Made by a program: the position numbers and the translations under genes | Shown here: one piece after another, positions 8,992-64,000 of the stretch | How positions within the stretch are numbered: the first letter of the stretch is position 1 | Layout of the letters: the number at the start of each line of letters is the position of its first letter | The notes under the pieces: generated by a model | What the model saw: the letters and a program-made list of their open reading frames with translations, nothing else | Database searches by the model: none | Told to the model about the DNA's origin: nothing | From: Spartinivicinus marinus | GTDB taxonomy: Bacteria > Pseudomonadota > Gammaproteobacteria > Pseudomonadales > Zooshikellaceae | NCBI RefSeq assembly: GCF_026309355.1 | Contig: NZ_JAPJZK010000001.1 | Coordinates: 5,786,501 to 5,850,500, forward strand | Reading direction: 5' to 3' | DNA: 64,000 nt

Positions 8992-9091
8992 AGTGGCTAC
9001 TTCGATCCTGCAAAAAAGGCCTGTAAGATACACTAATTAGGTTTCGTTGAATACATTTTTTTAACAAGTGTCAACGGTTTTAAACGAATAC

Positions 9092-9163
9092 AATACCCAA
9101 AGTGTAGGGTTTTTAGGGATGGCTATTGAGTGTCAAATTCCCATAAACTCACAAAGGGTATAA
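9092..9163. repeat. Short member of the TATACCC...GGGTATA interspersed repeat family
   Basis: Starts AATACCCAAAG and ends AAAGGGTATAA, with GTAGGGTTTTTAGG inside. These ends match the longer copy at 15821-15948. It lies just upstream of greB, between it and the divergent small gene, and may affect their promoters. A MITE-like nature is inferred. Confidence 0.5.
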
Positions 9164-9198
9164 ATACAACAGATAAGTTTGGCTACAGGATATACATT

Positions 9199-9705
9199 AT
9201 GAGTCGTTATCGCCCTCCTCAGCCGCCAAGCAATCATTATATTACACCTGCTGGCCATGCCCGGTTAAAGGAGGAGTTGGACTATTTGTGGCGAGTTAAA
9301 CGCCCTCAAGTCACTCAAGCTGTAAGTGAGGCTGCCGCCTTAGGTGACCGCTCTGAAAATGCGGAATACATCTATGGTAAAAAGCAACTGCGTGAAATTG
9401 ATCGCCGGGTACGCTATTTAAGAAAACGGCTCGATAAACTGGTGGTTGTTGATCAATTACCCAGCGATACCAGTAAAGTCTATTTTGGTGCCTGGGTACA
9501 ATTAGAAAATGAAGCAGGTGAAGCATTCACCTATCGAATAGTTGGTCCTGATGAGTTTGATTTAAAACAAGGGCTAATTAGTATGGATGCCCCTTTAGCT
9601 CGTGCGTTGTTGGGAAAACAATTGGATGATGAAGTGGTTGTAAACACACCCGAAGGTGAACAAACTTACTGGATAATTAATGTTCGGTATCAAGTGCCAG
9701 AATAA
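9199..9705 (+). CDS. greB: Transcription elongation factor GreB
   Basis: Rescues backtracked RNA polymerase by stimulating transcript cleavage. From ATG at 9199 (ACAGGA about 8 bases upstream) the product is 168 residues, the usual GreB length. The N-terminal coiled coil carries the GreB-type sequence [17 protein letters not shown] and the conserved acidic tip region [18 protein letters not shown]. The C-terminal FKBP-like domain includes [17 protein letters not shown] and SPLAR-like [10 protein letters not shown]. The frame extends upstream to a GTG at 9130, but that part lies inside an interspersed repeat and is not GreB-like. Confidence 0.95.
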
Positions 9706-10540: not shown

Positions 10541-12868
10541 ATGTTCAGACTGTCGTCTATTTCACTATTAGCGAGTAGTCTAATGGTGGGGGCTGCTTGT
10601 GCTGCTAGCCCTACACTGCCTCACTCCACTGCCGACTTAGCGATTGCTGACGAAGTGGGTATCACTAAACTATTAAAAAAAACCGGGCGTTTAAATCAGG
10701 ATGCAAGCCCCGCAGAAGCATCAAAAGCTGTACTAGCTTATTTAAAAGAAACAAAATCAAAAACCTTGCAAATGATACCTGGTGAATTGGATCGACAGGC
10801 ATTAACACGTCATAAGCAACGGTTAAAACAAGCTCAGCAATTTCAGTATCAACAAACCGGGCAATTGCCTACTTACCCAGGACAATTAAATAACCAACAA
10901 CAAACCCAACAATATCAAGGTAAAAAAACTCAAGATAAAGTGTTGGCATTATTAATTGAGTTTCCAGACTATAAACATAATGAAGTAGGTCCTGAGGATA
11001 CTGAGCGCTATTATCCTGATTATAATATTCCCCATTACACCCGACTGTTATTTTCTGATTCAGGTTATTCTGGACCAAACCAAGAAAAACTGATTTCCAT
11101 GCGTCAATATTATGAGCAGCAATCAGGCAACAGTTATAGTGTTGATGGCCAAGTCGTTGGTTGGTATATGGCCAAAAATCCCGCTAAATATTATGGTGAA
11201 GGCCGCCCTGATCCTAAAGTACCTGACTTGGTTAGAGAAGCGCTTGCCGCTGCTGCTCAAGACCCTAACATTGATTTAACCCAATTTGACCAAGAAGATC
11301 GCTATGACTATGACAATGATGGTGATTTACGTGAGCCCGATGGCATCATTGATCATTTGATGGTCTTTCACTCCAGTGTGGGGCAAGAAAGTGGCGGTGG
11401 TGATTTAGGGGAAAATGCTATTTGGTCACATCGTTCGAATTTACGTCAGGTTTATAAAATCCCTGGCTCTGAAATGTCTGCCTATGATTACACTATTCAA
11501 CCCATTGATGCCGCTGCTGGGGTATGTGCCCATGAATATGCCCATGACTTAGGTTTACCTGATGAATACGACACCCATCGTGATAGCAAAGGTGAGCCCA
11601 TTGCTTACTGGTCAATTATGTCCAGTGGTAGCCATGGCGGTAAAATCAGAGGTACAGAGCCTACTGGGTTTAGCCCTTGGGCACGACAGTATTTACAAGC
11701 GAATTTAGGAGGTAATTGGCTATCTGGTACTAGTGTTAACATGGATGAACTCAACCGTCGTGGTTTAACCTTTTTATTAGACCAGGCTAATGAGAAAGCG
11801 GAGTATCTTGATGTAGTAAGGGTAAATCTCCCTCCTGAAAAAGTCGTGGTTAATCAACCCTATCAAGGGGAAAAAGAATATTTCAGTGGTCGTGGGGATG
11901 AATTAAATCAGCTAATGAGTATTGAGCTGGATTTAACTACCGCTCAGGCCCCTGTGCTGGAGTTTAAAGCCTGGTATCAAATCGAGCAGGATTATGATTA
12001 TGCGAGGATCTTGGTTAATGGCACCCCTATTCCTGGTAATTTAACGACTCATGAAGATCCTCATGAGATTGGCCATGGCTGGGGCATTACTGGAAACTCT
12101 GATGGCTGGGTGGATGTTAGTTTTGATTTATCCAAATTCAGAGGCCATAAAATAACCTTAAGCTTTAACTATTTGACTGATGTAGGCACTTCTGAAGCTG
12201 GTTTTTATGTGGACGATATTACCATCATTGATAATGACCAGCTGCTACTGGAGGACAATGCTGAGGGTGACAGTGTCTTTACTATGCAGGGTTTTGCAGT
12301 AGACCCTGGTTACTTTATGGCTGATCAATACTATTTACTTGAATGGCGTAATCATGAAGGAGTTGACCAAGGCTTAAAGCATATTAATTTCAATCGTGAA
12401 TTAATGACTTACGACCCTGGGTTAGTGGTTTGGTTTGCTAATGATAAATACACAAATAACTGGGTAGGCGTACATCCAGGTGAAGGCTTTTTAGGTGTCG
12501 TGGATGCTGACCAATCTGTATTACGCTGGGAAAAAGAGTCTGATGCACAAGTGGCTTCTACTCGTTTTCAAATGAGAGATGCAGCCCTTAGTTTAACATG
12601 GCAGCAGTCACCACTGAATCTGACCTCAAGTGATGGTTATACATTACAAGATCATCAGCTTTATAATACGGCTACCTTCTTTGACTTATTTGATTATATG
12701 AATAAAGAAATACCTGATGCTGGTCGTATTTTACCAAAGTATGGACTATTGATTGAAGTCATTGATCAAGCAGAAGATATGAGTGCAGCGGCGATTAGAG
12801 TCAGTTATGGGTTAGACGATAATACAGCCCAACAAAATCAGCAAGAGATTCAGCAACAGTCATTATAA
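10541..12868 (+). CDS. Secreted M6 family metalloprotease, immune inhibitor A type (copy 1)
   Basis: A 775-residue secreted zinc protease. The signal peptide is residues 1-22. The propeptide follows (ITKLLKKTGRLNQDAS, AVLAYLKE). The catalytic domain holds the zinc motif HEYAHDLGLPDEYD with His331, Glu332 and His335, and an SIMSSGSHGG turn after it. An acidic DYDNDGDLREPDG stretch looks like a calcium loop. The later region (WYQIEQDYDYARILVN, YLTDVGTSEAGFYVDDI) resembles the immune-inhibitor-A C-terminal beta domains. Start ATG with AAGGAG eight bases upstream. Family members degrade host antimicrobial or matrix proteins; the role here is unknown. A close paralogue follows in tandem. A separate terminator suggests its own transcript. 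Confidence 0.93.
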   Translation: MFRLSSISLLASSLMVGAACAASPTLPHSTADLAIADEVGITKLLKKTGRLNQDASPAEASKAVLAYLKETKSKTLQMIPGELDRQALTRHKQRLKQAQQFQYQQTGQLPTYPGQLNNQQQTQQYQGKKTQDKVLALLIEFPDYKHNEVGPEDTERYYPDYNIPHYTRLLFSDSGYSGPNQEKLISMRQYYEQQSGNSYSVDGQVVGWYMAKNPAKYYGEGRPDPKVPDLVREALAAAAQDPNIDLTQFDQEDRYDYDNDGDLREPDGIIDHLMVFHSSVGQESGGGDLGENAIWSHRSNLRQVYKIPGSEMSAYDYTIQPIDAAAGVCAHEYAHDLGLPDEYDTHRDSKGEPIAYWSIMSSGSHGGKIRGTEPTGFSPWARQYLQANLGGNWLSGTSVNMDELNRRGLTFLLDQANEKAEYLDVVRVNLPPEKVVVNQPYQGEKEYFSGRGDELNQLMSIELDLTTAQAPVLEFKAWYQIEQDYDYARILVNGTPIPGNLTTHEDPHEIGHGWGITGNSDGWVDVSFDLSKFRGHKITLSFNYLTDVGTSEAGFYVDDITIIDNDQLLLEDNAEGDSVFTMQGFAVDPGYFMADQYYLLEWRNHEGVDQGLKHINFNRELMTYDPGLVVWFANDKYTNNWVGVHPGEGFLGVVDADQSVLRWEKESDAQVASTRFQMRDAALSLTWQQSPLNLTSSDGYTLQDHQLYNTATFFDLFDYMNKEIPDAGRILPKYGLLIEVIDQAEDMSAAAIRVSYGLDDNTAQQNQQEIQQQSL

Positions 12869-50569: not shown

Positions 50570-53500
50570 TTAATATTCAGGTGCAATAACTTGGAAGTCT
50601 AACCCAACAATCATATGCCCAATACCCTGAAAATCTTCTGCTTGAAAAACAGCCGTCGTGATCGTATCAATAATATGATTAGGTGCTGATGAAATAACAC
50701 CATCTGGCACCCGCACGCGAACAATACCATCCGGTATATAGCCATAATTTAATTCATGATCACTCGCCCCCGGGTTTTGCAAATACACATCAACCACAGC
50801 CACATAGTCTACATATTCTAATCCCTCTAAATAATAAATTAATGCCGACCGATAAATGATGCCCCCCACTGTTGGCCGTTCTGCTAATTGATAACCCCAA
50901 GGGGATAAAAATTGTTGAATGGCACGATTTAATTGGCGCCGGTAATAACCTGCACTGCTCATGTCGTAAAATCGTACGGCTAAGCGGAATAACACTTGTT
51001 CAAACGTTGGGTTAACCACTTGTAACCGCGCAAAAGGTGAGGTTAACGGTTGTAAATACTGTTGAATGCTATTTAAAGTCACTTGACTCACTTGGGGTTC
51101 TAACGGCACATCAGGGGCAAGGTGGGTCACATCCGGCAACACCATTACCCGCACTTCCCCTTGATTATTTTCATCCAATTGGTTATTCGCCCGTTGCTCA
51201 TCATAACCAAGACACTTGGCGTATATAATATCGGGAAATTGCTGCAGCACCAGTTGCTCATAATCCCTCAACATCGCGGCCCGTTGCCGATGCCCTAGCC
51301 GCTCACTGACTCGGGTGGCAAAGGCTTCATCCACTTCGGGGGAGCGTCCCCCAAAAGATGGATAAGGCTGTTTTATTTCAGCAATACTCCCCAATGGCGA
51401 TACTAAATTGGTAATCGAGTCAGCTCCTAAAACCGGGTTAATACTCTCGGGTTTATCTACAGCAACCAACAAAGCCCCTTGAGCATAAATAGCCTCAAGC
51501 CAGCTGGCCGCATCGGCTCGATCAGTAACACTGATTTTTAACCAATATAAACCTTCATCCATTAATGGCCCTTCTGCACTGGCTGCTAACGGCAACCGCA
51601 GCCGAATCAGCCCCGGCTGGGTTAACCCTTGGGTGGCATCCCCCAAAAACTCCTCTGCTGATAATGCTTGCCACCCTTGCAAGGTTCGACAGGCTATTCG
51701 CAAAGTGGGCGCGCCCAAACCAAACCGGCCTGTGCCATTCACCGTTTGCAACCATAAATTCAGCGTTTGCCCAGGTTTAGTGCCGCTAAGGCCCAAATAT
51801 AAACTGCCTTCATCCACTAGTTTGGGTAATAAATAACTGCCTAATAGGCGAGCTTCTTGATTTAAAGTATGCACAATATCCAAACTACCAAAGGGGTATA
51901 AATGCACTAACTGATGGACATCGTTGGCATAATGATCAGCATACGGGTCAATCACGGCAGAGGCCGTATAGCCTACTGAAAACCGACTCAACTTAGGCGT
52001 ATAAGGAGGGTATACCACCGTGGTAGTACCTTGCTGGCTATTCTTAGCCGCCACCATACTGGTGAGTGAAGGATAATAATGATGAAAAAAGTCAGGTCCC
52101 TGTAATTGCAACCGAAAATAGCGACGAAAATCTAACGGGTCCACTAACTCACTGGATTCCCCATCTAATAAGTGATAATAACCAGTGCGATTAAACCCTT
52201 GCAAATACGCCACCTGTTTTACACCTTGGCGATCTGCTTTAAACAAAGGCTTGGGGCTATCTATTGCTAACCAACTATTATTGCTGTATTGGCTTAACTG
52301 CACCGTAAAACTGTCTTCATCTACTTTAGTGGGCAGGCCTAATAAACCCGCTTCTGTATAAGTCTGGTAATGCTGCTCAAAGCTTGCTGGCAGCCCTGCC
52401 CAATGGAAAGTAAGCGATAAGCTATCCAGTTTTTTCTGCGACAACTCATTACAACCAAAATAACAATTGGCCCCTACCACTGGCGTAAAACCAAATGGCT
52501 CAAAAGGGCTGGCTGGGTCCATTAATGCGATATCAGTTTTTACCCGTAAATGCTGAATATCCGCCACGGTTACTTTTAAGCTGGCTTTATGCAGTCGAAC
52601 CTGGCGGAAGAACTCATAAGGGATATCCACCTGTGGCCCAGCCATATTCGATGCCACCTCATTTTTTAGACGAACTTCAAGCACGGGTAACCCTTTTGCC
52701 AGCCCCGCCATTTTAAAGTCAGGGCCAGGTGCCATCACCGCCTGGGCTGACTTAGGTAACACCAAGGTGAACCGTAGCCCAGGGTAAGCCGCTTTTTTTT
52801 CTACCTCCAAAGGTACTGGCTCACCAAAAGCTAAGGGGGCTGGCAGACGATGGGTTAAGGTTTTGGTGCGGGCCGTTGCAAACCGTTGCTCGGCGATATT
52901 TGAATTACTGTTGCCTGAATTATTGCCTGCACCATTATTAGAAGGGTCGTGCTCATCATTCGGCACTAGCCGATTAATTAGCAGCACCAAGCCATCGTTA
53001 AACTGCAATAGACGGTCTTCATCAGCCGCTGTAAATGCCTCGGTTTTACTGTCATCTGGAGCAAATTCAGCGCCGGAGATTGAGTAATTCCCTGCCAATG
53101 ACTGGCTCTGCTGCCAAGTTAGCCCTGGGTATTGTTGAAACCAAAATCTTTCTTCTAATAAAGGCGCATCACCTATAGTCACAACCTGCGCTTTACCATT
53201 AACCACCGATTCAATCACCAGCAATTGGCCACCATCCCAAACAATAAACTCCCCTACATCACTGTCTTCAAAACGCTGGTCGGCCCCTTGGCTAAACACC
53301 ACTTCTTGTTTGGCCACATCCAATGTAGCCCGAGTTAAATCGTTACTGGCTACATCCACCAGCCGTAGTGAAGCGGGTGGTTGGGCATTGTTATCAATCC
53401 GCAGCCGCCCGCTATACCACTGGTTATCTAGCCGCCCCTGAAAACTTAATTTCACGGCCTGCTGGCGTTGGGTTACCCCTTTTGCTGCAGTGGATTGGGT

Positions 53501-55393
53501 TGAGGCTACATCCGCTGTGGCCATCACTTGCCAAATACCCCAATAGTGCTGGTGGCCAGTGTCCAATATCAATACATCGTATTTTTTAACTCTGGCACCT
53601 AGCAAAGTAACTAGCAGCCATAGGCGATCACTGCCATAGCGTTTGATCAGTTCATCCCCTAGTTGGTCTACCTCAACCCGGGCATTAGCATTACCCCCCC
53701 TAGCGACTAACCCTTGCCACTCATCTGACCCACTTAAGCGAATATCAAAAGGCAACTGATTGCGCTGGTTTAGCTGCTGTAAATCCTCTAATGGGAAGCC
53801 CTTACTTTTACAGGCTAAGGTCAGCTCGATGGTTCGCACCCCAGACTCTAACTGCAGCAAAGGTGAGCTAATAGCAACCCCAGGGGCATAAAAAGCGCTG
53901 GGATCAGTAATCGCAGTCAGGCTAGGGTGATCTTGACTCAACCCAACACTGGCAAATGCCGATAATTGCCCGCCGCCTTCTGGGGTTTCAATGCGTTGTG
54001 GGTGCAAACAGCGGGTATCCGTAAACCCGGCCGGTGTATAGGCTTGTTGGCTACTGGTTTGTGCCGCTTGCTCTAACTTGGCATACACCGACTGCCATTG
54101 ATCTGGGGTAGCAGTACCAAAGTCATCCGCCTGTTTCACTACCATAATGGCAATAAAATCATCCACGCCCATGCCCAGGGCTTGTTCCACATAACGGCTG
54201 GCCAACAGATACTGATCGTGAGTTGCCGGTAATTGCAGTAAATCTAAATACAACGAATCGAAACTATCGCGATTACCAGGCAATGCAGGCAGTGGATCAC
54301 CTGGGTTAGGCTGACCTAAAGCCCGACGAAACATGGCCATTAGCCCGCCCGATTCCCGCTCCCGATGGTAGCCCACCATGGTTTGTTGCTGTTGTTTGTT
54401 TAGCCAAACCTGCTCTAGCAGCGCACAACCAGCAGCCCACTCTTCCTCACTGGGTAAATCCTGCTGGGCCCGTTGCCGGCGGAGTAATTCCATGCAGGCA
54501 AAAAAATCAGCTACCTGGCTAAAATACAACTGATCGTGAATATAATGGGTTGCTTCACTGGAAATAGGCTTACCATCACGGGTAGGGGCATACTGCTCAT
54601 GTAATTCCAGTAAAAAATCCACCGACACACTTTCATCCCAAAACTTCCCTGTCGGGTATGGGGGGAACTCATCCCCTTGGTAATACTGCCCTAAAACCCA
54701 GTGTAATACTTTAACAAATCCCTGCTGATAATGGCGGCGCATTTCATTTAACGTAAAATACTTGTCGTATCGCCGCAGGGTGCGCACGGCCATTAATTTG
54801 CCTTGGTTAACATTGGTATTATCGATTAATTGATAATGCAGCGGCGAACCATCGGTTTTTTGCCCGGCCAAAAATAAAGTGCCTTTCGTTAAGGCCTGTT
54901 CTTGATAACCGTCATTTAACCCCAATGCCACATGCACTTTATCAGCCACCCCTGGTTGCTTGCTCAACTGCAACACCTGTCGATAATAAAAATCAAAATG
55001 CCGTTGAGTAATGGCGGCTAAATCTTGTTTTGGCTGTTTTAATAAATGTAAAAACGTTAATAATAAAACTAACGCAGGGTTTTGAAAACTTGCCATCGCT
55101 TCCTGTGTATTATGATCAACATCAGCGCCACTTAAGAATGCTTCAGGGTCATTAAAATAATTTAATAACTTTTCGGCAGGCAGGCTAAATAATTTTTCCC
55201 AATGACCTGTTTGGTTATTTTGTTGATTTATAAATGGCAATTGGCTGGCAAATGCATTTAAAAAACCCAACCAATCCTTCATAGACCGCTCTTCAATAGC
55301 GACCGTCGTTGGGTTTAACGCTGTTTTTATACGATCAGTTTGGCGCAAGCCACTGCGTTCAATGGCTACCTTAAAAGGGGATTGATTGGGCAT
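50570..55393 (-). CDS. Baseplate J-like protein of a contractile-injection/phage-tail-like system (1607 residues)
   Basis: The first and largest gene of the operon. The N-terminus (LNPTTVAIEERSMKDWLGF, QLPFINQQNNQTGHWEKLF) matches the opening of eCIS baseplate proteins of the Afp11/gpJ type. The C-terminal 300 residues (VSERLGHRQRAAMLRDYEQL, FPDIIYAKCLGYDE, PFARLQVVNPTFEQVLFRLA, LSPWGYQLAERPTVGG) match the baseplate J/gp47 C-terminal domain. The middle is long and beta rich with no known motif. It would form the wedge that links tail tube, sheath and fibres. Upstream the operon ends at a broken RAYT transposase gene; no sheath or tube genes are seen. The ATG at 55393 has only a weak ribosome site. 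Confidence 0.8.
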   Translation of the reverse strand: MPNQSPFKVAIERSGLRQTDRIKTALNPTTVAIEERSMKDWLGFLNAFASQLPFINQQNNQTGHWEKLFSLPAEKLLNYFNDPEAFLSGADVDHNTQEAMASFQNPALVLLLTFLHLLKQPKQDLAAITQRHFDFYYRQVLQLSKQPGVADKVHVALGLNDGYQEQALTKGTLFLAGQKTDGSPLHYQLIDNTNVNQGKLMAVRTLRRYDKYFTLNEMRRHYQQGFVKVLHWVLGQYYQGDEFPPYPTGKFWDESVSVDFLLELHEQYAPTRDGKPISSEATHYIHDQLYFSQVADFFACMELLRRQRAQQDLPSEEEWAAGCALLEQVWLNKQQQQTMVGYHRERESGGLMAMFRRALGQPNPGDPLPALPGNRDSFDSLYLDLLQLPATHDQYLLASRYVEQALGMGVDDFIAIMVVKQADDFGTATPDQWQSVYAKLEQAAQTSSQQAYTPAGFTDTRCLHPQRIETPEGGGQLSAFASVGLSQDHPSLTAITDPSAFYAPGVAISSPLLQLESGVRTIELTLACKSKGFPLEDLQQLNQRNQLPFDIRLSGSDEWQGLVARGGNANARVEVDQLGDELIKRYGSDRLWLLVTLLGARVKKYDVLILDTGHQHYWGIWQVMATADVASTQSTAAKGVTQRQQAVKLSFQGRLDNQWYSGRLRIDNNAQPPASLRLVDVASNDLTRATLDVAKQEVVFSQGADQRFEDSDVGEFIVWDGGQLLVIESVVNGKAQVVTIGDAPLLEERFWFQQYPGLTWQQSQSLAGNYSISGAEFAPDDSKTEAFTAADEDRLLQFNDGLVLLINRLVPNDEHDPSNNGAGNNSGNSNSNIAEQRFATARTKTLTHRLPAPLAFGEPVPLEVEKKAAYPGLRFTLVLPKSAQAVMAPGPDFKMAGLAKGLPVLEVRLKNEVASNMAGPQVDIPYEFFRQVRLHKASLKVTVADIQHLRVKTDIALMDPASPFEPFGFTPVVGANCYFGCNELSQKKLDSLSLTFHWAGLPASFEQHYQTYTEAGLLGLPTKVDEDSFTVQLSQYSNNSWLAIDSPKPLFKADRQGVKQVAYLQGFNRTGYYHLLDGESSELVDPLDFRRYFRLQLQGPDFFHHYYPSLTSMVAAKNSQQGTTTVVYPPYTPKLSRFSVGYTASAVIDPYADHYANDVHQLVHLYPFGSLDIVHTLNQEARLLGSYLLPKLVDEGSLYLGLSGTKPGQTLNLWLQTVNGTGRFGLGAPTLRIACRTLQGWQALSAEEFLGDATQGLTQPGLIRLRLPLAASAEGPLMDEGLYWLKISVTDRADAASWLEAIYAQGALLVAVDKPESINPVLGADSITNLVSPLGSIAEIKQPYPSFGGRSPEVDEAFATRVSERLGHRQRAAMLRDYEQLVLQQFPDIIYAKCLGYDEQRANNQLDENNQGEVRVMVLPDVTHLAPDVPLEPQVSQVTLNSIQQYLQPLTSPFARLQVVNPTFEQVLFRLAVRFYDMSSAGYYRRQLNRAIQQFLSPWGYQLAERPTVGGIIYRSALIYYLEGLEYVDYVAVVDVYLQNPGASDHELNYGYIPDGIVRVRVPDGVISSAPNHIIDTITTAVFQAEDFQGIGHMIVGLDFQVIAPEY

Positions 55394-56211: not shown

Positions 56212-56332
56212 GAGTTGCTAATTTAGCACGGATGGGATTTAAATCCACATAGGCCATACAGGTTAAAATAGCCGCCTCATCTAATAATGCCTGACTTTTA
56301 AAGCGCCCCTCCCACTAATTCATCGGGAATAA

Positions 56333-56372
56333 ATTAGAACAGCTTTAGCTGGCCCCATAGGGGTAAACACCA
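56333..56372. repeat. Copy of the GAACAGCTTTAGCTGGCCC short repeat
   Basis: AATTAGAACAGCTTTAGCTG and then GCCCCATAGGGGTAAACACC. The core recurs at 60252-60290 inside a reverse transcriptase relic and, diverged, at 36661-36708. It is part of the insert that breaks the RAYT gene. Confidence 0.65.
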
Positions 56373-56893
56373 ATGATGGTGTTTATAAAAGCGACCTTTA
56401 CAAATGTCATCTTTATTGGCTAAGCGGGCGATATGTTCGTTTAAGCAACGCACTTGTGCCCTAGGGGTATAAACCAGCTAATATTCATTAATCGCTCACG
56501 CCATTCAGCTACAATCTCCTTAACAACTTTTAGTTCCGCCTCGTGCAAAGGTTTTGTCTTGGTGGATAACCAGCGACTAACTAACAAATTACCTTTAAAT
56601 AAACTACACCAACGCTTCGCCACCGTTTTATCCGACCACTGCAGTGCACTATCAGCATCGACTCGCACCACCACATGAAAATGATTGCTCATCACTGCAT
56701 AAGCACAAACATCAATTGCGAATACCTCCGATAATACTGCTATCCGGTCAACTATCCATGACTTCCTATGCTCATAACTGAGGCCCGTCACCCGATCCTC
56801 CCCACACAAGAACGCACGCCGGACACACCGCATAACACAGTGGTAGTAAGGGGTGTCAGCTAGGCTGACTTTTTCTTGTCGGGCTTTGGTCAT

Positions 56894-57232: not shown

Positions 57233-58324
57233 TCATTCGAGGTATGCTTTTATAAATGTGAACTGATCTAGTAAGTGGTTCCTATCTTCCTGTGCCCTCA
57301 TGGATCGGAACTCGAAGTACTTAGCCGTGTTGCTTCGTTGCTTCAATTTGGCCTTTCCATCGTGTTGGTCTGTGTACTCATATGGGAGTATATGTTCGAA
57401 GTTTATTTCTTGGTAATGGAGAATATATTCTAACGCCCAGTGTTCTTCAGGTTTCTTGCTTATTTTCGCGTAATCGATACTGCTTGGGTTCTGTGTCATG
57501 GCCTTAGCGAGGTTCATTATTTTGCTCTTCAGTTCGTCTTTGTCCTGTAGTGTTTGTTCCTGTGATATTACTGTTTGTAGATTTGTCAAGTTGATTGCCT
57601 GGCTCAATAATTTCAGGAAGGCGTTTACGTTGTTCTTGTCGTCATTTGTTTTCGTATCTTGTAGCAGGTTGGCGTTTTCCTGTGATTCGAGAGGGCTTGC
57701 ATTGTGTATCACATCGGGCGTTATAGTGTAGTCGTTATTTGGGTCCTTTGCGTACGTGTTGGCCATCAAGATTTGGGCTAATAGTGTACGTGCTTCGCTT
57801 ATGGATTGTTCCGGGTTGAGCACTCCTATGTTTATCTGGCCCCCACCATGTTTTGCGTCTCCGTATAAGTCGAGCCCATCTGTTATTTGAAATATTTCTC
57901 TGATTTTGTCTTGTTCTGCGAGTCTTCCAGAATGGAATGGGTCTGTTACTACTTCTAGCACGTCGCCATCAGTGGTTAGTTCATAGGCGAATTCATCGTC
58001 GAGCCATTCGTATCGCGTGCGAATATTCTGTGGAGCGTTTTCATCGTTATAGATGTCCTTCGCGATGTTCGCTATCCCTTTTCTGTTTTTATTCGGTTGT
58101 GGTAGTGTTCCGGTTTCTTGGGTAAACGCTGTGCATATCATGTCCCAATAATATATGTTTTTGCTTAGCGTGTTAGTCACTTCTGGGTTGTTCTTAGTTA
58201 TATCGTTCTTGACGTCTTGATCTAGCTTGTCATAATTTTGTCGCCAGTTTGTTTTTGTCTCGTCATAAAATGTTAGTTCCAATCCTACCGTTCGCTGTTC
58301 AAGTTTTTTATTAGAATCTTGCAT
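57233..58324 (-). CDS. Amidoligase-like protein of unknown role
   Basis: A 363-residue protein with a good start (ATG 58324, AAGGAAAG upstream). It begins QRTVGLELTFYDE, continues EFAYELTTDGDVLEVVTDPF and KHGGGQINIGV, and ends FEHILPYEYTD and KYFEFRSMRAQEDRN. This order (GLEL, E-T-TDG...EVV, a glycine-rich HGGGQINI strand, then an EFR segment) resembles the amidoligase/carboxylate-amine ligase superfamily, which forms amide bonds on peptides or small molecules. The match is by motif only. Its codon choice differs from that of its neighbours (more G and T at third positions). It lies directly downstream of a reverse transcriptase relic as if it were cargo of the array. Confidence 0.55.
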   Translation of the reverse strand: MQDSNKKLEQRTVGLELTFYDETKTNWRQNYDKLDQDVKNDITKNNPEVTNTLSKNIYYWDMICTAFTQETGTLPQPNKNRKGIANIAKDIYNDENAPQNIRTRYEWLDDEFAYELTTDGDVLEVVTDPFHSGRLAEQDKIREIFQITDGLDLYGDAKHGGGQINIGVLNPEQSISEARTLLAQILMANTYAKDPNNDYTITPDVIHNASPLESQENANLLQDTKTNDDKNNVNAFLKLLSQAINLTNLQTVISQEQTLQDKDELKSKIMNLAKAMTQNPSSIDYAKISKKPEEHWALEYILHYQEINFEHILPYEYTDQHDGKAKLKQRSNTAKYFEFRSMRAQEDRNHLLDQFTFIKAYLE

Positions 58325-58363
58325 AGCTTTCCTTATCTAGGTAAAAGACAGGACACCCAAAAA

Positions 58364-59404
58364 TTATCCAGCAGCCTCCAACGCCACCAAACAACCCTCA
58401 AACGCCCCATCCAACTTCACTCCGCTTCTCACCCACTGCCACCACCGTTTGATATACATTTTCACCGCTTCAACAGAAGCTGCTTGCTCATAAAGCCGAA
58501 GTTGTTTATCTCGATGGTTTGTCAAGGTTTTTTCGGCTAACAACACCCCAAGCCCTGCGGATGGACCCAAGCGATAGCCTAACCAGTTGAACCCTTTAGT
58601 AATTCGACCAATCAATGTTTTATCTGGTGCTTTTTCCATTTTTAACACACTCAGCACCTGATTCATAAGTTTTACGCCGGTTCTTAATTGACGTTTTGTT
58701 TTCGTAAGTAACACCCAATCATCCGCTTTTTATTTAAAAAAGCCGCAGGCGCTCTACTCATAAACTAAATTATATTGTTTGGCATGGTTGGTTAATTGAT
58801 TATCTAATTCCGTTAAAAATAAAGCACCTAACAAGGGTGATAATGACGAGCCTTTAGTAATCCCTTTTTCAACGAAAAATAATTCAGCATTAACATCATC
58901 TAAATGATTTAAAAATTGCGTGATTAAATCTAAAACAACTTCATCATTCATTACCCTGCGTAATTGCTCTATTAATATTGCATGATCAATACTGGCATAA
59001 TAAGACTTCACATCAGACTTCATGACATGGGTATAACGACTGCAATGTAAAGCAACTTTCATTACCGCTGCTTTGGCACCACCATGTCCCTTTAAGTGAA
59101 AGCAGCAGGGGCTAATAGACGGCTTTAACCTCTTTGTAAGGACCAATGTCATTGCTTTTTGTACTAACGCATCTTGAGCATTCCAAACCCCAATACTGTG
59201 TCCGTCTATTTTGCAGGCTTTACATGGTGAAAAACGATAGTCGCCGGCGATTAACTGTTTTTGAATAATGGGCTTGATCGCTTGCCAATGAAAACGACAG
59301 TGCCATACGGAATTATTGTAATGACTATTCTTTCGGCTTTTACACAACCATTCAAAGGCTTCATCAATAATCTCATCACTGGCTAGTTGATGAATCAACG
59401 ACAA
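58364..59404 (-). pseudogene. Reverse transcriptase, copy A, broken at the catalytic site
   Basis: Same protein as the intact copy at 62640-63656 over nearly its full length (N-terminal half 59404-58754, C-terminal half 58714-58364). At 58720-58755 the ten bases that encode the residues before the Asp pair are replaced by about 34 bases holding a TAG stop and the palindrome GCTTTTTATTTAAAAAAGC, so the YVRFMDDW motif is destroyed. The same lesion is in copy B. Confidence 0.88.
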
Positions 59405-59436
59405 TGGTATTTATCTCCCAACGTTATACCCACCTA

Positions 59437-60009
59437 TCATTCAATTAAACTAACAACAAAATACAACTCCCGCTGCACATCAAAAACATCTCCCGCAGCC
59501 CCATCAGCAAACCCACTAAACCCAACCTTGCCTAACACCCGCTGCGAATGGCTATTATGCCCCCATACTGAAGTATAAAGACATTTTAACCCCATTTTTC
59601 GTGCTTGTGTTAAAGCCAACCTAGCCGCTCGGGTACCAAAGCCCCGGCATTGGTAGTCGGTGCCTATCCAAAAATAAAAATAACCAGCACTATCTGTATC
59701 TGTTTCCGAAAGTGTCAAGCCAGGCAAGCCTGAGAAGCTATCTGTTAGCGGTTCAATGCTCACCACACCCACTAGGCCAAAATTATCGTGTAATACCGCC
59801 ATTATATGCCGCTGTGATTGCTGATCTTGAATAAAGGCTTGGGCTTGTTTCACATTGCTAATTTCTGGCAGCCGCGTTAATTGGGCTATGGTGGGATCAC
59901 GGTATTGTAAAGCTAACTCAGCAGCATGGTGTAAACCTAATGGCTCTAGCATTAATTCATTATCCCTGGCTTGGTCAGCATCATACCAACTAAAAAACAG
60001 GACACCCAA
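59437..60009 (-). CDS. GNAT acetyltransferase, N-terminally truncated, fused to RT 3' end
   Basis: A 190-residue frame starting at a TTG that lies within the end of RT relic B. Its first residues (MGVLFF) come from the RT boundary; from SWYDADQARDNELMLEPLG it equals the disrupted TPR-GNAT gene. The GNAT fold is complete: LQYRDPTIAQLTRLPEISNV, AVLHDNFGLVGVVSIEP, YFYFWIGTDYQCRGFGTRAARLAL (acetyl-CoA loop) and VWGHNSHSQRVLGKVGF. Ribosomal or small-molecule N-acetylation is possible. Substrate unknown. It ends 32 bases before RT copy A. Confidence 0.75.
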   Translation of the reverse strand: MGVLFFSWYDADQARDNELMLEPLGLHHAAELALQYRDPTIAQLTRLPEISNVKQAQAFIQDQQSQRHIMAVLHDNFGLVGVVSIEPLTDSFSGLPGLTLSETDTDSAGYFYFWIGTDYQCRGFGTRAARLALTQARKMGLKCLYTSVWGHNSHSQRVLGKVGFSGFADGAAGDVFDVQRELYFVVSLIE

Positions 60010-60012
60010 AAA

Positions 60013-60660
60013 TTATCCAGCAGCCTCCAACGCCACCAAACAACCCTCAAACGCCCCATCCAACTTCACTCCGCTTCTCACCCACTGCCACCACCGTTTG
60101 ATATACATTTTCACCGCTTCAACAGAAGCTGTTTGCTCATAAAGCCGAAGTTGTTTATCTCGATGGTTTGTCAAGGTTTTTTCGGCTAACAACACCCCAA
60201 GCCCTGCGGATGGACCCAAGCGATAGCCTAACCAGTCACAAAATTGTCAGGAACAATTTTGAACAGCTTTAGCTGGCCCGAAGGGTAAAAGGCAGGATGC
60301 CTGGAATAAACCCTTTAGTAATTCGACCAATAAATGTTTTATCTGGTGCTTTTTCCATTTTTAACACACTCAGCACCTGATTCATGAGTTTTACGCCGGT
60401 TCTTAATTGACGTTTTGTTTTCGTAAGTAACACCCAATCATCCGCTTTTTATTTAAAAAAGCCGCAGGCGCTCTACTCATAAACTAAATTATATTGTTTG
60501 GCATGGTTGGTTAATTGATTATCTAATTCCGTTAAAAATAAAGCACCTAACAATGGTGATAATGACGAGCCTTTAGTAATCCCTTTTTCAACGAAAAATA
60601 ATTCACCATTAACATCATCTAAATGATTTAAAAATTGTGTGATTTTATCAAAATCAATTT
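60013..60660 (-). pseudogene. Reverse transcriptase, copy B, relic
   Basis: C-terminal region 60013-60230, a 72-base insert, then 60309-60440, the same catalytic-site lesion as copy A, and 60470-60660. The N-terminal half is missing; the deletion runs straight into the end of a GNAT copy. One or two other substitutions separate it from copy A. Confidence 0.85.
60237..60308. repeat. 72-bp palindromic insert in RT relic B
   Basis: Begins CACAAAATTGTCAGGAACAA: CAAAATTGT (60239-60247) pairs with ACAATTTTG (60253-60261). Then follow GAACAGCTTTAGCTGGCCC and the small hairpin GGCAGGATGCC. The RT sequence on each side joins cleanly when the insert is removed, apart from two bases. A non-autonomous mobile palindrome is likely. 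Confidence 0.75.
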
Positions 60661-61018
60661 CATTATTTTCTCATGTAAACAACAAAATACCACTCCCGCT
60701 GCACATCAAAAACATCTCCCGCAGCCCCATCAGCAAACCCACTAAACCCAACCTTGCCTAACACCCGCTGCGAATGGCTATTATGCCCCCATACTGAAGT
60801 ATAAAGACGTTTTAACCCCATTTTTCGTGCTTGTGTTAAAGCCAACCTAGCCGCTCGGGTACCAAAGCCCCGGCATTGGTAGTCGGTGCCTATCCAAAAA
60901 TAAAAATAACCAGCACTATCTGTATCTGTTTCCGAAAGTGTCAAGCCAGGCAAGCCTGAGAAGCTATCTGTTAGCGGTTCAATGCTCACCACACCCACTA
61001 GGCCAAAATTATCGTGTA

Positions 61019-62164
61019 ATACCAATCATGGTAAATAATCTGTAAAATACCTGGTCACAGTATTTCACTTAATTTGACTAGGAATTTAATAATGGCAAGG
61101 ATTGCTTCTATTCCAGATGAGTTGTATGACTACGACTTTGATGCCTTACTAAACAGAGAGCCCCACCCAAGAACACGGCTTCGCTTATTAGCGATGGCTC
61201 ATTTACAAGCAGGTTGGTCCCAAACAGAAATAGCGCGAGCATTAAGAAAGTCAAACAATACCATTCAGGACTGGCTCAACCGTTTTAGACGAGATGGCCT
61301 TGAAGGACTTTATGAACAACCCGGTAGAGGAAAAAAACCGTTTCTTTGTCCTTCACAATATAATGAATTTAAAGCGGCCGTTATTACCTTACAAAACAAT
61401 CGTCAAGGCGGTAGAGTTCAGGGTAAAGATATACAACAGTTGCTGCTAGAGCAATTTAATATAGACTACAGCTTAAGTAGTATTTATGAGGTATTGCATA
61501 AAGCAGGACTTTCTTGGATTACATCAAGATCTAAACACCCTAATCATAGTCCAGATAAACAGCAAGCGTTTAAAAAAACTTTGAGAAAGAGGCCCTAAAA
61601 GTACTTCCTTCATCCGTTTCTCCAGATAAAGTTGATATTTGGTTTCAAGATGAAGCGAGAGTGGGTCAGCAAAATACCAGTACGCGTATTTGGGCAGAGA
61701 AAGGTACGCGCCCACGAGTAGTGAAGCAACAACAGTTTGAGTCAGCTTATCTCTTTGGCGCTGTTTGTCCTGCCAAAGATATAGGGGTGGCTCTTGTATT
61801 ACCTGTTGCTAACACAGAAGCAATGAGGTTGCACTTAACAGAAATTTCAAAAGCCATTTCCAAGGGAAGACACGGACTGGTTATCGTTGATCAAGCTGCA
61901 TGGCATACGACTCATTGCCTAGAAATACCTGCGAATATTACGCTATTAAAGTTACCACCTGCTTCCCCAGAACTTAACCCAGTAGAGCGGATATGGGAAA
62001 AACTTAGAGAAGATTCACTGGCAAACCGTTGTTTTAAAAATTTCAATGATATTGTTGAGTCTTGTTGTGAGGCATGGAATGTATTTGTGAATAAGAAAAA
62101 TAACATTAAAAGCTTGTGCTCCAGGTGCTGGGCTGTTTTAACAAGCTAATAAACAGGATTGGTA
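61019..62164 (+). mobile_element. IS630-family insertion sequence, about 1.15 kb
   Basis: Ends ATACCAATC and GATTGGTA are inverted copies, and the element is bordered by a TA duplication (61017-61018 and 62165-62166), as IS630/Tc1-mariner elements produce. The uninterrupted GNAT sequence GTGTAATACCGCC elsewhere in the window shows the empty site. Confidence 0.88.
61092..62149 (+). CDS. IS630 transposase with a -1 frameshift at an A7 run
   Basis: The first frame (from ATG 61092, AGGAATT upstream) gives the helix-turn-helix region: RLRLLAMAHLQAGWSQTEIA, ALRKSNNTIQDWLNRF and GRGKKPFLCPSQ. It ends soon after TTTAAAAAAAC at 61569-61579. The -1 frame continues without a break as NFEKEALKVLPSSVSPDK, then VDIWFQDEARVGQQ (first Asp), LVIVDQAAWH (second Asp) and LNPVERIWEKLRED (Glu), the DDE triad. 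The run of seven A could serve programmed frameshifting or be a disabling one-base change; the sequence does not decide. Confidence 0.85.
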
Positions 62165-62639
62165 TAATACCGCCATTATATGCCGCTGTGATTGCTGATC
62201 TTGAATAAAGGCTTGGGCTTGTTTCACATTGCTAATTTCTGGCAGCCGCGTTAATTGGGCTATGGTAGGATCACGGTATTGTAAAGCTAACTCAGCAGCA
62301 TGGTGTAAACCTAATGGTTCTAGCATTAATTCATTATCCCTAGCTTGGTCAGCATCATACCAACTGCATTGCTGACAATAGGCTTGCCATTCTACAATAT
62401 CACTGGCTAATTGAAGTGCTTGTGTGTCATTAGGCGATAACTGTAGTACTTGTTGAATGCATTGTTTAGCTAAGGGCTGAACACCACTACTGTAGCCACA
62501 AAGGGCTAAGTTATGCCATAGGGCAGTTTGATTAAGCGTGGACAGATTATTTGTAGTGCACTTAGGATTAGATTGATCCGCCCATGCCAATACCCATTGT
62601 AAGCAATGTAAATAAGGTAAAAAACAGGACACCCAAAAA

Positions 62640-63656
62640 TTATCCAGCAGCCTCCAACGCCACCAAACAACCCTCTAAGGCCCCATCCAACTTCACTCCG
62701 CTTCTCACCCACTGCCACCACCGTTTGATATACATTTTCACCGCTTCAACAGAAGCTGCTTGCTCATAAAGCCGAAGTTGTTTATCTCGATGGTTTGTCA
62801 AGGTTTTTTCGGCTAACAACACCCCAAGCCCTGCTGATGGACCCAAGCGATAGCCTAACCAGTTGAACCCTTTAGTAATTCGACCAATAAATGTTTTATC
62901 TGGTGCTTTTTCCATTTTTAACACACTCAGCACCTGATTCATGAGTTTTACGCCGGTTCTTAATTGACGTTTTGTTTTCGTAAGTAACACCCAATCATCC
63001 ATGAACCTTACATAAACCAAATTATGTTTTTTTGCATGGCTGGTTAATTGATTATCTAATTCCGTTAAAAATAAAGCACCTAACAAGGGTGATAATGACG
63101 AGCCTTTAGTAATCCCTTTTTCAACGAAAAATAATTCAGCATTAACATCATCTAAATGATTTAAAAATTGCGTGATTAAATCTAAAACAACTTCATCATT
63201 CATTACCCTGCGTAATTGCTCTATTAATATTGCATGATCAATACTGGCATAATAAGACTTCACATCAGACTTCATGACATGGGTATAACGACTGCAATGT
63301 AAAGCAACTTTCATTACCGCTGCTTTGGCACCACCATGTCCCTTTAAGTGAAAGCAGCAGGGGCTAATAGACGGCTTTAACCTCTTTGTAAGGACCAATG
63401 TCATTGCTTTTTGTACTAACGCATCTTGAGCATTCCAAACCCCAATACTGTGTCCGTCTATTTTGCAGGCTTTACATGGTGAAAAACGATAGTCGCCGGC
63501 GATTAACTGTTTTTGAATAATGGGCTTGATCGCTTGCCAATGAAAACGACAGTGCCATACGGAATTATTGTAATGACTATTCTTTCGGCTTTTACACAAC
63601 CATTCAAAGGCTTCATCAATAATCTCATCACTGGCTAGTTGATGAATCAACGACAA
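62640..63656 (-). CDS. Reverse transcriptase, copy C, intact, group-II-like palm without maturase domains
   Basis: A 338-residue RNA-directed DNA polymerase. RT motifs in order: VMKSDVKSYYASIDH (first catalytic Asp, residue 131), GITKGSSLSPLLGALFLTEL (181-200), VYVRFMDDWVLL with the Asp pair 220-221, and PDKTFIGRITKGFNWLGYRLG. The SPLL after motif 4 is like group II introns and unlike the SQ of diversity-generating retroelements. There is no maturase X, DNA-binding or endonuclease domain and no intron domain V was seen nearby. The start is TTG at 63656 with GGGAG about 13 bases upstream. It lies 32 bases after a GNAT gene, so the two are probably co-transcribed. Role unknown. Confidence 0.88.
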   Translation of the reverse strand: MSLIHQLASDEIIDEAFEWLCKSRKNSHYNNSVWHCRFHWQAIKPIIQKQLIAGDYRFSPCKACKIDGHSIGVWNAQDALVQKAMTLVLTKRLKPSISPCCFHLKGHGGAKAAVMKVALHCSRYTHVMKSDVKSYYASIDHAILIEQLRRVMNDEVVLDLITQFLNHLDDVNAELFFVEKGITKGSSLSPLLGALFLTELDNQLTSHAKKHNLVYVRFMDDWVLLTKTKRQLRTGVKLMNQVLSVLKMEKAPDKTFIGRITKGFNWLGYRLGPSAGLGVLLAEKTLTNHRDKQLRLYEQAASVEAVKMYIKRWWQWVRSGVKLDGALEGCLVALEAAG

Positions 63657-63688
63657 TGGTATTTATCTCCCAACGTTATACCCACCTA

Positions 63689-64000
63689 TCATTCAATTAA
63701 ACTAACAACAAAATACAACTCCCGCTGCACATCAAAAACATCTCCCGCAGCCCCATCAGCAAACCCACTAAACCCAACCTTGCCTAACACCCGCTGCGAA
63801 TGGCTATTATGCCCCCATACTGAAGTATAAAGACATTTTAACCCCATTTTTCGTGCTTGTGTTAAAGCCAACCTAGCCGCTCGGGTACCAAAGCCCCGGC
63901 ATTGGTAGTCGGTGCCTATCCAAAAATAAAAATAACCAGCACTATCTGTATCTGTTTCCGAAAGTGTCAAGCCAGGCAAGCCTGAGAAGCTATCTGTTAG
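63689..64000 (-). CDS. GNAT acetyltransferase, copy C, partial (window edge)
   Basis: The C-terminal half of the GNAT domain (YFYFWIGTDYQCRGFGTRAA, VWGHNSHSQRVLGKVGF, VVSLIE end). The nucleotide sequence equals 59437-59748 of copy A. The frame remains open at the right edge, so the gene's start lies outside the window. Confidence 0.85.
   Translation of the reverse strand, partial: LTDSFSGLPGLTLSETDTDSAGYFYFWIGTDYQCRGFGTRAARLALTQARKMGLKCLYTSVWGHNSHSQRVLGKVGFSGFADGAAGDVFDVQRELYFVVSLIE

Follow-up and report, generated by a model that had tools for sequence, protein, structure and literature searches.

Layout of the reverse transcriptase array

The window analysed here, that is, the whole stretch of 64,000 nucleotides from Spartinivicinus marinus (contig NZ_JAPJZK010000001.1, positions 5,786,501 to 5,850,500), ends in a tandem array on its minus strand, in which the list of open reading frames (ORFs) and a repeat comparison of the window place three copies of a reverse transcriptase (RT) gene interleaved with three GNAT segments. 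The array had been proposed in an initial annotation and is real, as is the claim that only its rightmost RT is intact. We lettered the units A, B and C along the minus strand, A having the highest window coordinates; the array features below lie on this strand unless stated otherwise. RT copy A (62640..63656) encodes an intact enzyme of 338 aa with the active-site motif YVRFMDDW, whereas B and C are partial, decayed copies: RT C (58364..59404) has two in-frame stops, and the 5' half of RT B (60010..60677) is deleted, leaving the 3' part alone, which corresponds to RT model positions 159-328. The spacing of 32 nt between GNAT stop and RT start, also noted initially, holds at both complete junctions (63657-63688 in A and 59405-59436 in C); the corresponding stretch is deleted in copy B.

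Three GNAT segments are indeed present, but they are not three genes. The bases past position 64000, which we have now read, place the GNAT of copy A as the C-terminal domain (aa 672-817) of an 843-aa ORF reaching window-equivalent 66220 (L009:6689-9220), so that it is not a free-standing gene; only this C-terminal part lies in the window (63689..64000), the gene start being past its end. The 843-aa protein also has a weak Pfam match to Methyltransf_28 at aa 131-382. Across the window and the bases beyond it, Pfam recognized CIS_TMP (1.5e-47), gp25, Phage_base_V, PAAR and baseplate J genes in the surrounding operon, and AAA genes were identified by reading the sequence. Tape measure, baseplate, spike, PAAR and AAA genes together identify the operon, as judged from its predicted products, as an extracellular contractile injection system (eCIS).

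Copy B begins at junction A/B (62612..62618), where the RT 3' end plus 25 nt is fused without microhomology to a point within the 843-aa gene, X1 (window 62614). Its first part, from X1 into the GNAT domain (62162..62614), is split from the remainder of GNAT (60678..61023) by a plus-strand element of about 1.14 kb (61024..62161; ORFs 61074-61598 and 61661-62149), which we take to be IS630-like. RT B follows, with a net 24-nt insert at its YxDD site (pattern match 60444-60473) and an insert resembling a repetitive extragenic palindromic (REP) sequence at about 60237-60308, for which a genome search allowing up to 3 mismatches gave a single match. At junction B/C (59988..59994) the RT 3' end is fused to X2 (window 59992), the start of the GNAT domain, with 2 bp of microhomology (TA). 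Copy C thus consists of the GNAT domain alone (59437..59992), within a 1204-nt tract identical to A, and an RT whose 5' part equals A and whose 3' part is old and B-like, with the same active-site insert as B (pattern match 58725-58754). The 3' edge of the three copies, Y, is common to within 3-5 nt, and at copy C (58339..58363) the native downstream gene lies next to it. Repeats longer than 40 nt in the window comprise the array itself and one REP-like pair.

The class of the RT and the border at its 3' end

By its sequence the intact RT is a UG4-class enzyme, and neither a group II intron nor a diversity-generating retroelement (DGR) enzyme. RT A scores 353 bits (E 2.9e-106) against the RT_UG4 profile and 141.5 bits against the next RT model; all 22 UG4 candidates tested, the window RT included, pass RT_UG4 at 1e-45. 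A phylogeny, proposed at the outset as a check, puts the window RT inside the UG4 clade: in a 71-row tree made by a quick method, with a long-branch warning on one outgroup row, 56 UG4 rows are split from 15 outgroup RTs (SH-aLRT 99), and the window RT falls within a 7-row UG4 subclade (support 99). A search of the genome found no UG4 copy outside the array, just 4 weak matches to other RTs. UG4 relatives are carried by contigs labelled Cyanobacteriota, Planctomycetota, Thermodesulfobacteriota, Verrucomicrobiota and Bacteroidota, several of them metagenome-assembled genomes (MAGs), the Bacteroidota relative being assigned by the tree only and not by the RT_UG4 model. From viral contigs we used the best 2 (L147 and L148) of 80 loci; most of the others resembled other RT classes (22-33% identity).

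UG4 has been a named class since at least 2014, when it was called restricted to Proteobacteria (PMC4244168), and a UG4-like RT was later reported from Bacillus thuringiensis. The published account gives the class no known function and reports a fimbrial neighbourhood in 66% of cases in complete genomes (PMC8934634); the accessible portions of the literature searched hold nothing on its function beyond the class description. The window RT shares sequence class and clade with these enzymes, and several of the relatives found here are also fimbrial. What sets it apart from the published cases is that it lies in an eCIS operon, follows a methyltransferase-like/GNAT gene and is part of a three-copy array; the fimbrial neighbourhood, frequent in UG4 without defining it, is absent, and eCIS genes stand in its stead.

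The initial label of a group-II-like RT did not survive this comparison. Similarity to group II introns and group II-like RTs is distant, with a TIGR04416 score of 120.4 bits, below the 300-bit cut-off, and between 55000 and 64000 Rfam gave no match to an intron RNA at the gathering threshold; on these two grounds we rejected a group II intron. Retron RT models stay far below cut-off on the window RT, and Rfam, which holds few retron RNAs, returned no match at its gathering threshold in the same interval. The annotation was therefore right that the layout is that of neither a DGR nor a group II intron, and the parts of a retron were not found. UG4 loci resemble DGRs in having an RT adjoining the variable end of genes for exposed proteins. 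DGR RTs, however, carry an SQ-type motif, whereas the window RT reads GSSLSP, and UG4 neighbours differ by whole non-homologous segments. Among 15 repeat pairs in 14 relative loci mismatches were mixed, with no adenine excess by eye, and we rejected the DGR reading on this count. A further likeness is to the orphan-module arrays of Rhs and CdiA, in which a full gene is followed by displaced partial 3' copies, as in the window; here, by contrast, the copies are near identical, the unit includes an RT, and the end domain is GNAT and not a toxin.

Our strongest general result is a sharp border at the RT 3' end, common to loci across phyla. We compared 65 near-full UG4 RTs from 63 loci. To be counted, a pair needed a DNA match of 500 nt or more that approached codon 313 to within 120 nt, and how far the match ran on was left unrestricted. 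Of 77 qualifying pairs one was dropped (L109/L062, apparently one contig twice) and two further duplicated pairs were kept. The match ends between -118 and +135 nt from codon 313 in 76 of 76 pairs (+112 for the window A/C pair), and a variable gene or gene end begins there; on the 5' side, 12 of the 76 run on past 150 nt, some as far as about 4 kb, where the stretch compared ends. The Escherichia group comprises 11 loci, 5 of them remnants or pseudogenes, and 55 pairs: the RT match reaches the border in 46, all ending at -18 to +33 nt, no colinear similarity follows in the 900 nt past the border, and the upstream usher and chaperone genes are 77-88% alike in many pairs. By eye the next gene past the border encodes an adhesin-like secreted protein, and mutual similarity among 18 loci is practically nil (best E 0.003). 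The neighbouring gene is convergently oriented in Budvicia, Luminiphilus and Salmonella; its 3' part is the piece that varies, and similarity returns deeper in the gene. The accessible portions of the literature searched state neither a border at the UG4 RT 3' end nor the placement of UG4 beside eCIS, type VI secretion system (T6SS), PEP-CTERM or autotransporter genes.

Pfam was run on 72 RT-adjacent genes, hand-picked mainly out of 130 candidate neighbours in 95 loci, and returned 9 PEP-CTERM, 6 Fimbrial, 6 TPR, 3 usher, 3 Big_1 and 3 GNAT genes; other UG4 RTs adjoin fimbrial, inverse-autotransporter, PEP-CTERM or T6SS genes. By a crude home-made predictor, signal peptides occur in 33 of 76 downstream neighbours against 131 of 507 far genes, a modest excess (p 0.002), and downstream neighbours do not differ from upstream ones (24/78, p 0.13).

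Individual loci show further arrangements at this end of the gene. Luminiphilus syltensis has two near-identical UG4 loci 1.3 Mb apart (L103 and L104), whose convergent neighbours start alike and end differently, and L103 holds an RT 3'-end remnant past that neighbour. Budvicia aquatica (L116, L120, L145) has four UG4 copies, two on one contig; the convergent neighbours of three of them share an N-terminus, whereas their 3' parts of about 800 bp are unrelated. At L107 (RT ORF end 12118) and L110 (end 12070) the UG4 frame continues C-terminally for about 380-390 aa, giving ORFs of 719 and 703 aa with extensions that differ from each other. In Legionella yabuuchiae, a segment made up of the RT 3' end and the beginning of a small, convergent secreted gene is present twice (L100:10833-11483 and 11762-12409), the two copies being near identical save for a strongly diverged stretch between two conserved blocks.

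Origin of the array and possible roles of the RT

Copy C is a mosaic. A and C show no difference over the 1204 nt that begin exactly at the C junction, and in the last ~430 nt they are separated by 19 aligned substitutions (8 beside the insert) and the net 24-nt insert at the active-site codons that is common to B and C; A and B agree throughout the first 248 nt and show 5 differences over the following 205 nt (p 0.018), the first of them at X2. We considered whether the active-site insert is a mobile repeat and rejected this, as it occurs in just these two copies. Since C is identical to A for 1204 nt and then ends in an older, diverged RT, it is shown, on the evidence of the alignment, to have received recent sequence copied from A; B probably did so too, the recent sequence setting in right behind the preceding RT 3' edge and giving way to older sequence. 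The initial suggestion of repeated cargo capture thus gives way to partial copying of one local unit. The two junctions lie 20-25 nt past the RT stop and use Y points 3-5 nt apart and X points 248 nt apart, a pattern expected if strand invasion or template switching set out from an end at Y; as donor, cDNA of A could serve as well as DNA of A.

Taken together, the explanation that we favour, with about an even chance of being right, is that a UG4 RT sits at a variable slot of the eCIS operon and was amplified by local copying. The RT gene resides in the operon, immediately behind the methyltransferase-like/GNAT gene and ahead of a downstream gene that is variable. The array would have been founded by one or two local duplications and then reshaped by repair- or conversion-type copying off the intact master, new units being joined on at the RT 3' edge. 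The copied tract starts at the junction behind the preceding RT and then crosses by homology into older sequence. The most likely role that we infer for the RT is a part in replacing the gene, or gene end, that adjoins its 3' edge, since this is precisely the border at which UG4 RTs lie in many phyla. That the RT drives this turnover is a tentative proposal that we consider doubtful, and cDNA as the copied intermediate likewise seems to us possible rather than probable. Broader still, and unlikely in our view, UG4 RTs could be a gene-turnover engine, in which RNA copies of nearby or incoming genes, after reverse transcription, would be attached in any orientation to the 3' edge of the RT gene, the array then representing self-copies; such an engine, if it exists, would swap exposed domains, tip adhesins or injected cargo.

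Several observations weigh against an active part for the RT. The 3' part of copy C is the old, diverged one, which excludes that A was simply reverse transcribed starting at its 3' end, and the mosaic needs no cDNA, as gene conversion among the DNA copies accounts for it. Seven related fimbrial operons that lack an RT, with chaperones 66-87% alike, carry unrelated adhesins at the same spot in 20 of 21 pairs. Fimbrial-tip variability therefore does not need the RT, and this control ruled out the RT as a proven cause of adhesin variation; the UG4 RT marks a variable slot. In many Escherichia pairs similarity is lost close to the RT start as well, which makes the RT an island in these loci. Finally, of the truncated UG4 fragments 23 retain the 3' end and 14 the 5' end (p 0.19), with 9 retaining neither, and because this bias is not significant we abandoned 5'-truncated retrocopies as a UG4 signature, at which the window, L071, L100, L103 and the Escherichia remnants had hinted.

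These findings lend themselves to an alternative, quite possible if somewhat short of an even chance, in which a semi-mobile or inherited UG4 RT is a passenger surviving in variable slots beside genes for exported structures, and the array arose by ordinary tandem duplication and gene conversion, the RT having no effect on its neighbours. The variability of RT-less operons and the island-like Escherichia RT fit it, as do the decay of two of the three array copies and the 49 of 126 UG4 elements in the loci that are less than full length (3 of these cut by locus edges). It accounts less well for the 77 of 126 that are near full length, for a border that stays at the RT 3' end whatever the orientation of the neighbour, and for recurrence in many phyla. 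In favour of the local-copying explanation, tandem partial RT copies occur at 8 of 72 loci, compared with 9 of 243 other ORFs of 250-450 aa (p 0.03), or 7 of 71 without the window (p 0.06).

Anti-phage defence, in which UG4 enzymes would resemble defence-associated RTs (DRTs) and make cDNA on infection, appears improbable. PADLOC places UG4 among its DRT candidates, but this filing is a label and not a test; the neighbours are often adhesin, secretion or injection genes, and a Pfam scan found no further domain fused to the window RT.

A functional two-gene unit of GNAT and RT, in which acetylation might, for example, control the RT, we consider distinctly improbable, although the adjacency on which the initial annotation built it does recur. 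In Marinomonas balearica (L068) the RT is immediately preceded by an orthologue of the 843-aa gene, 831 aa long (27%, E 2e-65), and genes for tail sheath and tube lie about 6 kb further on; in an Alteromonadaceae MAG (L069) a 980-aa orthologue (30%, E 5e-102) lies 409 nt before the RT, and a patatin gene after it; in M. aquiplantarum (L071) a GNAT gene closes a T6SS operon and the RT comes next; and a locus from the genus of the window itself (L061) retains GNAT with an RT remnant. In Pseudoalteromonas (L070) a GNAT gene lies about 2.2 kb downstream of the RT. The four intact GNAT-adjacent RTs (window, L068, L069 and L071) all share the one 7-row subclade, yet no adjacent GNAT was noted for L067, L072 and L074 of that clade, and GNAT accounts for just 3 of the 72 adjacent genes. 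Moreover, G019 has an orthologue of the 843-aa gene (28.9% by blastp, 33% in another comparison) in an operon with a TssA-like gene, read by eye as a T6SS, and its 94%-complete genome gave no RT_UG4 match. The adjacency thus does exist, but within what was scanned it is confined to RTs closely related to the window RT.

Repeats at a locus can mislead assembly, a doubt raised initially, but collapse is an unlikely source of this array and an artefact next to negligible as an explanation, because the copies differ by substitutions, by the insert common to B and C and by private insertions, and all lie within a single 6.44-Mb contig.

The window locus ties UG4 RTs to contractile injection systems, an operon context that is new for the class, and the border yields a checkable rule: the RT 3' end separates conserved sequence from a variable gene or gene end, often that of an exported structure. 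Should the RT cause this variation, it would represent a new way of renewing surface and injection proteins; should it not, it would still be a useful marker of variable slots. As UG4 relatives often adjoin fast-changing genes for surface or injection structures, the job of the RT is worth testing.

Other genes of the operon and related loci

Downstream of the array on the same strand lie an orphan 363-aa gene (57233..58324), which has no Pfam or PHROGs match and matched nothing in a search of 292 further genomes of the order, and a baseplate J-like gene of the eCIS operon recognized by Pfam (50570..55393). An empty-site comparison within the genus found only diverged matches to eCIS ATPase and baseplate genes in G001 and G002, and an orthologue of the full 843-aa gene in neither. 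Three G001 contigs (C2, C9 and C49) match both the eCIS ATPase and the baseplate gene, so that this genome probably has several eCIS loci.

Within the window, a short ORF at 56441-56893 has a weak IS200-like transposase match below the Pfam cut-off and is presumably RAYT-like; it lies next to a REP-like sequence (56313-56355) to which the REP-like piece in RT copy B (60237-60279) is related. Among the relatives, the UG4 RT of Desulfobacter latus is split by an ORF (L142:6484-7776) that we assume to be IscB-like. At L088, a 155-bp piece of a gene that by eye resembles asparagine synthase stands before the RT (9046-9200) and is repeated at 95% behind it (11480-11634). The UG4 RT at L072:4275-4937 follows two tandem small genes, which we take to resemble R-body (RebB) proteins.

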